Made by a program: the position numbers and the translations under genes | Shown: piece after piece, positions 26,951 to 61,244 of the stretch | How positions within the stretch are numbered: position 1 is the first letter of the stretch | Layout of the letters: each line of letters opens with the position of its first letter | Source of the DNA: a candidate division KSB1 bacterium | GTDB lineage: Bacteria; Zhuqueibacterota; Zhuqueibacteria; Residuimicrobiales; Krinioviventaceae | Length of the DNA stretch: 64,000 nt | Assembly (NCBI GenBank): GCA_034521575.1 | Contig: JAXHMJ010000003.1 | Location: 558,001-622,000, forward strand | Reading direction: 5' to 3' | Notes under the pieces: generated by a model | The model's input: the letters and a program-made list of their open reading frames with translations, nothing else | What the model was told of the DNA's origin: nothing | Databases searched by the model: none

Positions 26951-26979
26951 TTGACAATCGCAAATTTATTTTGTATAAT
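26951..26979 (+). promoter_or_regulatory. consensus sigma-70 promoter for thuA-like gene
   Basis: TTGACA (26951-26956) and TATAAT (26974-26979) match both consensus hexamers exactly with an optimal 17-base spacer. Start of transcription would be near 26986, about 28 bases before the ATG at 27014. Confidence 0.8.
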
Positions 26980-40069: not shown

Positions 40070-40092
40070 TTGAATCCTGGGGTTAAAGATAG

Positions 40093-40187
40093 CGGGAACG
40101 TGTGGGAATCGAACCCACCCGAGACTGATTTACAGCCTCACAACGGTTTTGAAGACCGCGGGCGCCACCAGGCCGCCATCCATTCCC
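40093..40187 (-). tRNA. selC: selenocysteine tRNA (anticodon TCA)
   Basis: On the - strand a 95-nt RNA folds as tRNA-Sec. The 5' end GGGAATGG pairs with ACGTTCCC at the 3' end (seven pairs, one G-T, last position mismatched). A D arm GGCG/CGCC follows, then an anticodon arm GCGGT-CTTCAAA-ACCGT with anticodon TCA. The long variable arm has a 7-bp stem GAGGCTG/CAGTCTC, and the T arm is GTGGG-TTCGATT-CCCAC. The discriminator is G and the encoded end is CTA, so CCA must be added. The extended acceptor arm, long variable arm and 95-nt length are diagnostic. No selA, selB or selD gene is in the window. Confidence 0.93.
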
Positions 40188-40242
40188 GAAACCTTAAAAT
40201 AAACATTTTTTTACGCATAAAAAATATATTTTTTTGAGAGTT

Positions 40243-40270
40243 TTGACAGCCTGAATGGTACTATTAAAAT
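40243..40270 (+). promoter_or_regulatory. sigma-70 promoter of a candidate small RNA
   Basis: TTGACA (40243-40248) and TAAAAT (40265-40270) are separated by 16 bases. It reads away from the divergent tRNA-Sec gene into a gene-free stretch closed by a terminator at 40376-40403. Confidence 0.55.
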
Positions 40271-40276
40271 GAAAAC

Positions 40277-40403
40277 CGGATGGGGGTAAGGTTTAGGGGG
40301 GTAAGCTAGAAAGACTCTGGCATTTTTTTGAGAAATGCAGCTAAATTTACGGGGAGATCGGTGAAACGGGGGTTTGGAGAGGCGGTGGGCCTCTCCTTTT
40401 TTT
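40277..40403 (+). ncRNA. candidate small RNA, about 127 nt
   Basis: The interval has its own promoter and ends in an intrinsic terminator, but contains no ORF with a start and ribosome-binding site. It is G-rich near the 5' end (GGATGGGGG, TTAGGGGGG) and contains a second hairpin, GCATTT with AAATGC at about 40320-40338. It does not match the core motifs of SRP RNA, tmRNA or RNase P that I can recognise. It could instead be an attenuated leader of the phosphofructokinase gene at 40638. Confidence 0.4.
40376..40403 (+). terminator. intrinsic terminator of the candidate small RNA
   Basis: GGAGAGGC (40376-40383) pairs perfectly with GCCTCTCC (40389-40396) around GGTGG, followed by seven T. Confidence 0.85.
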
Positions 40404-40457
40404 GGAAAATGCGCATACCTCAAGGTTGAAATCTTCTTGTGGGAGATTTTACGTTGA

Positions 40458-40487
40458 CGGGACTGTTGAGCAACAGTCCCGTTTTTT
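40458..40487 (+). terminator. second intrinsic terminator upstream of pfk
   Basis: CGGGACTGTTG (40458-40468) pairs with CAACAGTCCCG (40471-40481), followed by six T. No gene lies between it and the previous terminator, so it may stop read-through or mark a second short transcript (about 40404-40487). Confidence 0.85.
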
Positions 40488-40637
40488 ATTCCATCAAATT
40501 GAAAAAAATAGTTTTCAATTTTCATTGTTATTATTATATTTATGGAAATCTTTCAATGGATGTTTCGAAATATACATTTAACGCCTGTTGTTTTTTAGCA
40601 AGTTAATCAACTGACAACAATCGGACAGGAGGAGTCA

Positions 40638-41750
40638 ATGAAAATAGCATTTGTGACCGGCGGCGGTGATTGTGCCGGAATCAATTCCGCTTTGGCGCGT
40701 GCCGTTTTGCATGGAGCCGGTCAATATGGTGATACGTTTGTAGGCATACAAAAGGCATTCGAAGGACTGGCTGCAGATGATATCAGCGCTTATGCCGTGG
40801 ATTTAACACCGCAAAAAGCGCTGGAATTTTTTGATGCTCCCAGCACCATCCTGGGGTCGTCGAGATTCGCCCCGTATAATAACGCCAGCAGTGGCGCGGC
40901 AGCGGATAAAATCAAGGAGAATCTGAAAAAGATCGGTGTGGATGCGATTATGGCAACCGGCGGCAATGATACGGTACTCTCGGCTTTGGGAGCGCATGAA
41001 TCCGGTGTTCAGGTGATTGCCGTCCCCAAGAGTATTGATAATGATATCAGCGGCACCGACTGGATGCTGGGTGCTCATACGGCCATTGATGCAGCAGCAC
41101 GCGCGTTTAAGAGCGCGTCTGTGTCCGCCAAAACCCATTCGCGTATCTCGATCAATGAAGTGATGGGGCGCAAGGCCGGATGGCTGGCTTTTTTTTCCGG
41201 TACCGCAAGCGGCGCTGATTTTATCCTGGTGCCGGAAAAGACATTTCAGCTGCAGTCATTGATTCAGGATGTAAAACAACGATTTGACCAACAGGGCTAT
41301 GTCAATATTGTTGCCTCTGAAGGCATGAATATCAATCCGAATGATCCGGTGTATAAACAAGCCGTATCCGACAATGCAGATGACCTGGTGTTGAAAGCCA
41401 TGCTGACCGAAAAACCGGAAACCGATCCGCACGGCAATATAAAACTGGGCGGTATTGGAATGATTCTGCAGCGCATCCTGGTTGGGGGTATGAATGTCAA
41501 GATGAGTCTGGTTCGCCAGTCTAATGTCGGTTTTACGCTGCGCGGACTGCATCCCAATGCTTACGATGTCAATCTGGGTCAACGCTTCGGACGCAAGGCT
41601 GTTGAACTGCTGCATGCCGGAGAATCCGGGTATATGGTTGGAGTGCACGGAATGAACATCCGCACGGTTCCGATGAAAGAGGCATTGCCCCAGTTTACAC
41701 TAAATGCGATGGATGAGGATGAACTCGTATCTTTGGGTGTGTATTTTTAA
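40638..41750 (+). CDS. 6-phosphofructokinase, pyrophosphate-type signature
   Basis: The 370-residue protein is a PfkA-family kinase: GGGDCAGINSALA at the N-terminus, MATGGNDTVLSA at 105-116, VPKSIDNDISGTDW at 129-142 with catalytic Asp134, INEVMGRKAGWLA near 173 and a C-terminal RQSNVGFTLRGLHP. In ATP enzymes the phosphoryl-donor site has Gly at two positions; here they are Asp111 (GGNDT) and Lys131 (PKSIDND), the combination of PPi-dependent enzymes. So it probably makes fructose 1,6-bisphosphate reversibly with pyrophosphate. GGAGGAG precedes the ATG. The gene follows two terminators and starts a + strand run. Confidence 0.9.
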   Translation: MKIAFVTGGGDCAGINSALARAVLHGAGQYGDTFVGIQKAFEGLAADDISAYAVDLTPQKALEFFDAPSTILGSSRFAPYNNASSGAAADKIKENLKKIGVDAIMATGGNDTVLSALGAHESGVQVIAVPKSIDNDISGTDWMLGAHTAIDAAARAFKSASVSAKTHSRISINEVMGRKAGWLAFFSGTASGADFILVPEKTFQLQSLIQDVKQRFDQQGYVNIVASEGMNINPNDPVYKQAVSDNADDLVLKAMLTEKPETDPHGNIKLGGIGMILQRILVGGMNVKMSLVRQSNVGFTLRGLHPNAYDVNLGQRFGRKAVELLHAGESGYMVGVHGMNIRTVPMKEALPQFTLNAMDEDELVSLGVYF

Positions 41751-44901: not shown

Positions 44902-47271
44902 ATGAAAGTAAAATGGCTTTTTTTATGCCTGGGTATCTTGTGGCTGCCCGGTATGGCATCTGCGGATTTTCCGCGCATGTACGATGTGATTATGCTGACG
45001 GGCGATGATTTTCCCCGGTTTTTACAACAACCATTGGAGGAGATCAAAGCTTGGTCCTATTCATCAGCTACAGACACCTGGTCCGCAGCGACTTTGCAAA
45101 TTGATCAACTTGACGACGGTACGTCCTATTTCAGCAGCAAAAACGGCTTGCTGGATCCTGCGGATGAGGTGCTGATCGCTGCTCAGGAACTGGGGGACCA
45201 GGCCGACATAACAGGCTGGCCGCAAGCCGGTGTAACTCAGCGCCATGAACTGGCGGTGACGGATCCGCATTCCGGTTCTGTCGGGTATCTTTACTTTTTT
45301 CAAACTTTGGATCTCGCGGCGAGTGAAGAACAATGGGTTTCAGTCCGCAATGATACCGTGTATGGCAGAACCTATACGATGGCGCATGACAGTCTGCTCG
45401 CAAGCGGACTGCCCGCGATGCTGAAAATCGGCGAGTCCAATGTGGACTTTATGGATAAATGGCGGTTTCAGCTTAAAATCACCAAAATTGAAGCGACATT
45501 TGAGGGTATACCGATTAATTTGAGCCAGGATTTTTATGTCACCGAGTCCATTGACAAGTCTTACACGATCAAACAAAGCGGCATCACCATCGGTTCGATT
45601 CACATCAAAGCCTTCCAGGACGGTTCTCCTCAGCTGATCAGCGGCCCCTTGCGGGTGACTCGTAAAATACGCATCACCGTTGAATTCAGCGGCCTGATGG
45701 AGAGTGAAGCGCAATTGCCGTTGACTATACAATATTATCCCTATAATACTGAATTTGCGCCGGATTTCAGTCTGGAATTTCCTGATATTGACAAGCTGAA
45801 AGGTCCGTACCTGGAATTTTCCAAAGCATTCAACGACGCAGCCCTGCAGATGCGGTTCCACGGATACCATTATGATTTAAAATTTACGGATGAAACCGAC
45901 GATCATATTATCAATGACAATAATCTGGATATCTTTGATCACGAGATAAATGAAGCCGAGTGGGATAATCCGGATTCGCTCTGGTACGGATTCAGCGGTC
46001 ATAGTTCCAGCCTGGTTGATCAGGTATCGTCTCTGCATATGTTCTTTCCCGCTAAAGAGTATTTGAAATACGATGACGGACGTTCGCCGGTTCTGTTTTA
46101 TTTCGATAAAAAGGTGAACGGCGATTATGGCTATGAAGACTATCAGGTGTTTGGCGTCAACGGTCTGCGCATTCAGGACTGGGAAGTGGAAAAAAATGAC
46201 TCTTTGAATTTAGGCGGTCGTTTTCTCGATTATTATTTTCCCGAAAACAAAACAACCGGCGAATTAGAGTCGCTTTACGAACAACAGAGGCTGGCTTTAC
46301 AATCGGTTGTCACTTTTCAGGAATATGACAGGATTCCGCCTGCTTTTGTGCAGGATCTAAACGTTAACTCGGTAACAGATACGTCTGCCGTTCTGGAATG
46401 GACTGCTCCGGGTGATGACGGCCAGAGCGGCGGACCCGTGAGCCGTTATGAGATCTGTGTCAATGATCAGGCCCCGACAGCGAGCCAAATGGGGCCGAAT
46501 GAGATGGACTATTATTGGTACACCCTGGCTGACAAGCTGTCCTATACCGGAAGCGCCGGCGCCGGTGAAACCGAACTGTTTGAGGCGCCCGGACTGCAGT
46601 CCGGCGTGACTTTTTACTTTCGGATCCGAGCCGTTGATGATGATAATAATTGGTCGGGAATCTCCAATACAGCCTGGCAGGCAACCACTCCCGTCGAACT
46701 TGCCGCATTGTCCGCTCGTGTCACGGATGCCCGGGTTGTACTGAGCTGGTCCACGCAATCGGAGACCAATAATCTCGGATTTGCTGTTCAGAGACGCAAA
46801 TTCGGTCAGACTGACTCTGACTGGCAGACGCTGCGGTTCGTCAATGGCCGGGGCACCACCAGCAAAACAGTTCACTATGAATTTATCGATAAAGTGACAA
46901 CCGGACACTATGAGTACCGTCTCAAGCAAACCGATACGGATGGAGCGTTTTCCTATAGTTCAATCCTGCGTGTTGAGGTCTCTGCTCCCAAAGCATTCGC
47001 ATTGCAACAAAATTATCCGAATCCGTTTAATCCCGAAACGGTTATCCGTTACGAACTGCCGGCTCGGGTAACGGGACCGGTAACCCTGGTGATTCATGAT
47101 ATGCTGGGACGTATGATCAAAGTGGTGCGTGAACCCGCACAGGCGGGTTATCACAGGTTTGTGTGGGACGGAACCGATGCATCCGGTACCCAGGTGAGCT
47201 CCGGTGTTTATTTGTATACGTTAAAAGCCGGGTCTTTTGTAAAAACCTGTAAAATGGTTAAATTACAGTAA
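44902..47271 (+). CDS. large secreted protein with fibronectin-III and C-terminal sorting domain
   Basis: The start at 44902 (GAGG upstream) is preferred over 44857 because it opens the signal peptide VKWLFLCLGILWLPGMASA. The 789-residue protein has a unique beta-rich N-terminal part of about 470 residues. A fibronectin-III domain follows at roughly 475-600 (PPAFVQDLNVNSVTDTSAVLEW, ending YFRIRAVDDD), then a second sandwich (ALSARVTDARVVLSWSTQSE). The FlgD-like type-A sorting tail has NYPNPFNPETVIRYEL and SSGVYLYTLKAG and ends KMVKLQ. Such tails mark cargo for surface delivery or anchoring in FCB bacteria. Function of the N-terminal part is unknown. Confidence 0.85.
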   Translation: MKVKWLFLCLGILWLPGMASADFPRMYDVIMLTGDDFPRFLQQPLEEIKAWSYSSATDTWSAATLQIDQLDDGTSYFSSKNGLLDPADEVLIAAQELGDQADITGWPQAGVTQRHELAVTDPHSGSVGYLYFFQTLDLAASEEQWVSVRNDTVYGRTYTMAHDSLLASGLPAMLKIGESNVDFMDKWRFQLKITKIEATFEGIPINLSQDFYVTESIDKSYTIKQSGITIGSIHIKAFQDGSPQLISGPLRVTRKIRITVEFSGLMESEAQLPLTIQYYPYNTEFAPDFSLEFPDIDKLKGPYLEFSKAFNDAALQMRFHGYHYDLKFTDETDDHIINDNNLDIFDHEINEAEWDNPDSLWYGFSGHSSSLVDQVSSLHMFFPAKEYLKYDDGRSPVLFYFDKKVNGDYGYEDYQVFGVNGLRIQDWEVEKNDSLNLGGRFLDYYFPENKTTGELESLYEQQRLALQSVVTFQEYDRIPPAFVQDLNVNSVTDTSAVLEWTAPGDDGQSGGPVSRYEICVNDQAPTASQMGPNEMDYYWYTLADKLSYTGSAGAGETELFEAPGLQSGVTFYFRIRAVDDDNNWSGISNTAWQATTPVELAALSARVTDARVVLSWSTQSETNNLGFAVQRRKFGQTDSDWQTLRFVNGRGTTSKTVHYEFIDKVTTGHYEYRLKQTDTDGAFSYSSILRVEVSAPKAFALQQNYPNPFNPETVIRYELPARVTGPVTLVIHDMLGRMIKVVREPAQAGYHRFVWDGTDASGTQVSSGVYLYTLKAGSFVKTCKMVKLQ

Positions 47272-61083: not shown

Positions 61084-61154
61084 AGCGAACTCCTTTCTAC
61101 GAGCCTCGCCAGAGCAGGGAAGGCTTACAGCGGCTATGAAATACTGCGCTTGCT

Positions 61155-61233
61155 GCCGTTTCCCTACGCTAGCATTACCTAGTTCAGGTTTCAGGGTATG
61201 ATCTCAGGTCGAATGACCACCCCTAACGGGTTA
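61155..61233 (-). promoter_or_regulatory. TPP riboswitch (THI element)
   Basis: On the - strand the conserved aptamer parts appear in order: GGGGTGG, CTGAGATCATACCC, GAAACCTGAACTAGG, TAATGCTAGCGTAGGGAA. The 3' part (TAGG-TAATG-CTAGCG-TAGGGA) is the pyrophosphate-binding half and CTGAGA the pyrimidine-binding half. It ends about 72 bases before the receptor ATG. The spacer has an AGCCT/AGGCT pairing next to AAAGGAG, so control of translation is likely. Confidence 0.92.
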
Positions 61234-61244
61234 TAGATTATTTT

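Follow-up and report, generated by a model that had tools for sequence, protein, structure and literature searches.

It is established practice to predict small RNAs (sRNAs) from an orphan promoter together with a Rho-independent terminator, as in sRNAscanner and sRNAPredict, and sRNAscanner was designed to detect sRNAs without the need for sequence conservation (PMC2916834). Like the orphan intergenic sRNAs treated there, the unit reported here lies between genes, has a promoter and a terminator of its own and encodes no known protein; it differs from them in being a candidate defined from sequence only, with no homologue found, and in its host, which belongs to the KSB1/Calditrichota lineage.

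Results

Promoter and terminators between tRNA-Sec and pfk

The window is the whole stretch of 64,000 nucleotides that was analysed (contig C3:558001-622000), taken from a candidate division KSB1 genome of 5.26 Mb in 5 contigs. Within it, a gap of 450 bp separates the divergent tRNA-Sec gene (40092-40187, minus strand; RF01852, 72.2 bits), behind which sits a TauE/SafE gene (PF01925), from the downstream phosphofructokinase gene pfk (40638-41750, plus strand; PF00365, 1.4e-63), whose closest named relatives come from MAGs labelled Calditrichota or candidate division KSB1 (69%, 67% and 64% identity); by this one gene, the host falls in that lineage. The gap holds one promoter and two terminators, all on the plus strand. 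Between the second terminator and pfk, an AT-rich inverted repeat (TTGAAAA...TTTTCAA, 40500-40520) can also be read from the sequence, possibly an operator or a piece of the pfk promoter region. Elsewhere in the window, Rfam places a TPP riboswitch on the minus strand (61144-61234, 63.9 bits).

The promoter has TTGACA at 40243-40248, a 16-nt spacer and TAAAAT ending at 40270, as an earlier note on this DNA had read it; it is of the sigma-70 type and matches the consensus at 11 of 12 positions. It is one of three sites in the window with at least 11 matches and, as judged by consensus, provides the promoter of its own in intergenic DNA that is looked for in a free-standing sRNA gene. Consensus promoters of this type number 363 in the noncoding DNA against 241 in the reversed contig at 9/12, and nine against three at 11/12. 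The sole 12/12 promoter of the window (TTGACA-17-TATAAT, 26951-26979) lies just 5' of a plus-strand ORF, and its perfect fit is a hint that the genome uses the standard consensus.

Judging from the distance to the -10 box, the predicted RNA would start near 40277 and run for about 127 nt on the plus strand to the end of terminator 1 (40277-40403). This terminator (40376-40403), proposed in the earlier note as an 8-bp GC stem followed by T7, is borne out by sequence and folding: its arms (40376-40383 and 40389-40396) form 8 pairs, 6 of them G-C, around the loop GGTGG, with T7 at 40397-40403, so that an intrinsic terminator with a U tail closes the unit, as is looked for in a free-standing sRNA gene. 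Terminator 2 (40457-40487, plus strand), also found by sequence and folding, has a perfect 11-bp stem (40457-40467 with 40472-40482; 12 pairs counting one extra at the base), the loop GAGC and a T run, and a bulged hairpin seen in folding (40421-40456, plus strand) lies immediately 5' of it. The T6 that the earlier note gives for terminator 2 is present, but its first T pairs within the stem; the stem lies 53 bases past T7.

The RNA body (40277-40375) contains 37% G and 10% C. G runs are found in the predicted RNA at 40282, 40296, 40351 and 40368, and three runs of at least five G within 130 nt occur once in the window, here. The whole 127-nt RNA folds no better than its shuffles (z = -1.27), the 3' terminator hairpin being its only robust structure; a G-quadruplex was not picked by the folding program (gain 0).

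The unit had been described as having no ORF, which holds for known proteins (no Pfam match), but small frames do exist. One of 104 aa on the opposite strand (40211-40525) overlaps the unit; it gave no Pfam match and shows no obvious ribosome site by eye. Another, of 22 aa, starts with GTG (40361-40429), has a Shine-Dalgarno-like GGGGAG 5' of this codon and crosses terminator 1, and a 9-aa ATG frame begins three bases past the predicted RNA start; either of these two could be translated.

Rarity of the unit

We have compared the gap with 3000 dinucleotide-preserving shuffles of its 450 bp. A promoter with at least 11 of 12 matches, on either strand, appeared in 37 of the 3000 and a comparable terminator in 3; neither two terminators nor a promoter and terminator in this order appeared in any (0/3000 each).

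The whole contig (786,763 bp) was scanned likewise, with 619 ORFs of at least 120 aa masked as coding and the reversed contig as control. The unit is the sole noncoding promoter-terminator unit on the contig whether the promoter cut-off is set at 11, 10 or 9 of 12, the two units listed in the scan being one promoter paired with two terminators, and the reversed contig has none. The ORF cut-off had been raised to 120 aa, since at 100 aa the 104-aa antisense ORF covers the gap and the scan gives 0 units.

Strong noncoding terminators number 41 on the contig, against 5 on its reverse. As many as 34 of the 41 follow a co-directional ORF, at a median distance of 34.5 nt, and only 7 have no co-directional gene before them, so a strong terminator without a preceding gene is uncommon on this contig. 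Two of the 7 are terminators 1 and 2, and another closes the rRNA operon; since the latter sits 11 nt past the 5S rRNA, at least one other orphan terminator marks RNA genes. The four further sites are at 45620, 253286, 316606 and 782061 of contig C3. Strong terminators in tandem occur in three cases on the contig, one of them inside a duplicated tRNA region.

Known RNA families

No Rfam family matches the unit at threshold, and only sub-threshold matches appear at E values up to 10. The best of these on the plus strand is the Clostridiales-2 RNA (RF02937), with which a G-rich stem-loop aligns; its 23.5 bits (gathering score 58.6) were taken as chance. The 6S RNA (RF00013), which had been suggested as a possible identity and which resembles the unit in being a small noncoding RNA gene, is ruled out at this locus, where the Rfam search does not list it even at E ≤ 10, and since the genome's 6S RNA lies elsewhere (C3:453122-453293, 56 bits, cut-off 46.4).

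Search for relatives

In a BLAST search of 248 bases against 60 genomes, among them 9 further members of the family and 12 of the order, only the locus itself, its own palindrome and chance-level matches were recovered. We have also built a covariance model of the RNA with the terminator as its only structure (R2) and another of the second part (R3), and searched 81 genomes with each. R2 scores 177.6 bits on itself and at best 22.8 bits in another genome; its next-best match in the same genome reaches 26.2 bits and covers the junction between two successive protein frames, so that for this model E values near 3e-4 count as noise. R3 scores 113.5 bits on itself and 37.1 bits in genome G077, at a terminator that shares the stem letters and lies about 30 bp 5' of another gene. 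This match is taken as chance, because the stem pattern of terminator 2 occurs in 3 of 119 genomes (host included) and its reversed pattern in 1 of 119; the stem as a lineage-wide repeat was rejected on the same counts.

Comparison of gene order gave no relative either. Upstream of tRNA-Sec no such unit was seen by eye in G001 (where the region ends at the contig end), G006, G009, G011, G012, G014 and G015, and five further tRNA-Sec stretches were covered by Rfam and the models only. The regions upstream of pfk in G001, G002, G008, G012 and the Spirochaetes-labelled L109 give local alignments no better than shuffles. A phage origin (a 20-base exact pattern, 0 matches in viral contigs) and a plasmid origin (no plasmid match) were both rejected. 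Conservation in relatives, which the earlier note had set as a test in advance, was thus not found for the promoter or the hairpins in up to 81 genomes, the closest of them at family level. Since this distance is far for an sRNA, the absence is weak evidence, which lowers confidence in the candidate without refuting it.

G-rich elements in other genomes

A search of 22 genomes for three G runs of at least five has led to a G-rich intergenic element of 86 nt in G001 and G006, two genomes of one genus (L114:915-1000, minus strand, and L113:1482-1567, plus strand), whose comparison shows 86% identity over 85 bases. Its terminator is kept in both, with GGGGG in the loop, as is an upstream GGCA-N-TTGCT, which resembles a sigma-54 promoter. 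A model of this element (R1) matches neither the window nor G000, and has no clear member among the other 38 genomes (best 27.1 bits). A motif drawn up with both elements in view matches them, the window and just one distant genome among 194, a circular result because the motif was designed from its own members. The element is best regarded as a putative RNA separate from the window unit, and a common family of the two is rejected for now, R1 missing the window.

In G008, the gap upstream of pfk is also divergent and contains, about 600 bp from the gene, an orphan 11-bp terminator (L107:1267-1292) preceded by G-run-rich DNA. When the G008 DNA upstream of pfk is aligned with the unit of the window, 98 of 200 shuffles do as well, and when the G008 unit is compared alone, 249 of 500 do; it is a parallel in position without sequence similarity. 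That the window, the G001/G006 element and G008 represent fast-evolving, G-rich sRNAs of the KSB1 lineage, closed by intrinsic terminators, too diverged to align and working by the pairing of their G runs with C-rich messages, seems to us highly improbable.

Discussion

The unit is probably a free-standing gene for a G-rich noncoding RNA of about 127 nt (40277-40403), with terminator 2 as a back-up that would end a longer form of about 210 nt. Its position on the pfk strand and its two terminators in series would also suit an attenuated pfk leader, in which the 40243 promoter drives pfk and the terminators are opened by a ligand, by a protein or by translation of the 22-aa frame, whose GTG start, with GGGGAG upstream, leads across terminator 1; the best possible competitor for such a switch is a 9-nt stretch (40363-40371) complementary to the 3' arm of terminator 2. 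In the predicted transcript 40277-40490, however, the mean pair probability is 0.999 for terminator 1 and 0.951 for terminator 2 (lowest pair 0.73), and in the short form that of terminator 1 is 0.998, so that no strong antiterminator, and with it no alternative fold of the kind required, was found. Moreover, 150 bp separate terminator 2 from the pfk start, no riboswitch or known aptamer class was matched in Rfam, and of four close pfk orthologues one (G008) has a strong upstream terminator, which is not alignable with the unit; upstream of pfk in G001, G002 and G012 (the last partly N) no terminator-like site of at least 8 pairs was detected on the pfk strand. Because the terminators are nearly unopposed, the gap to pfk is 150 bp and the orthologues compare in this way, we consider the free-standing RNA much more likely than the attenuator, itself unlikely. 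The earlier note had left the choice between short RNAs and an attenuated pfk leader; the candidate small RNA gains from the rarity of the unit, and the leader loses for want of a competing fold and from the 150-bp gap.

It is also conceivable that two RNAs are made, the 127-nt RNA and a well-folded one of about 80 nt (40404-40487) arising by processing or from an unseen promoter. The segment 40410-40490 is indeed far more stable than expected (z = -4.79, with 0 of 200 shuffles equally stable), but the terminator itself supplies part of this score, no promoter of at least 9/12 lies between the terminators, and the one notable match to the second-part model among the 81 genomes, that in G077, is a terminator between two other genes; we regard a second RNA as quite unlikely. 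A body without conservation or structure would be natural if the promoter and terminators were left over from a decayed gene, or served to insulate the divergent tRNA-Sec and pfk promoters, any transcript being meaningless. All three signals are nevertheless intact and in order, the antisense frame holds no protein remnant by Pfam and the contig is otherwise without similar sequence, which makes a leftover improbable.

If the unit is a free-standing sRNA gene, transcription by RNA polymerase carrying the housekeeping sigma factor would start near 40277 and stop mostly at terminator 1, giving a product of about 127 nt whose G-rich body (about 98 nt) is weakly structured and whose 3' end is the terminator hairpin followed by a U tail, the exact ends following from the presumed start and stop. 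Terminator 2 would catch the read-through (about 210 nt) and so shield pfk from this transcription, and pfk would have its own promoter, presumably within the AT-rich 150 bp ahead of its start. Such a layout is like that of a trans-acting base-pairing RNA, a mode of action that we infer from the layout. A target search over 619 translation starts gave no duplex above shuffled controls: the best duplex has -57.5 kcal/mol, 3 of 10 block-shuffled RNAs reach lower minima, and the pfk start ranks 540th.

Taken together, the locus appears to be a well-marked candidate for an orphan intergenic sRNA gene, a putative member of an established broad kind, and the unit alone settles no open question. In the literature library searched in full text, no sRNA study on the KSB1/Calditrichota lineage was listed. 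If expressed, the unit would give this lineage a defined small RNA gene, and it suggests that a promoter with an orphan terminator may be enough to recognise RNA genes in genomes of this sort when conservation is lacking.
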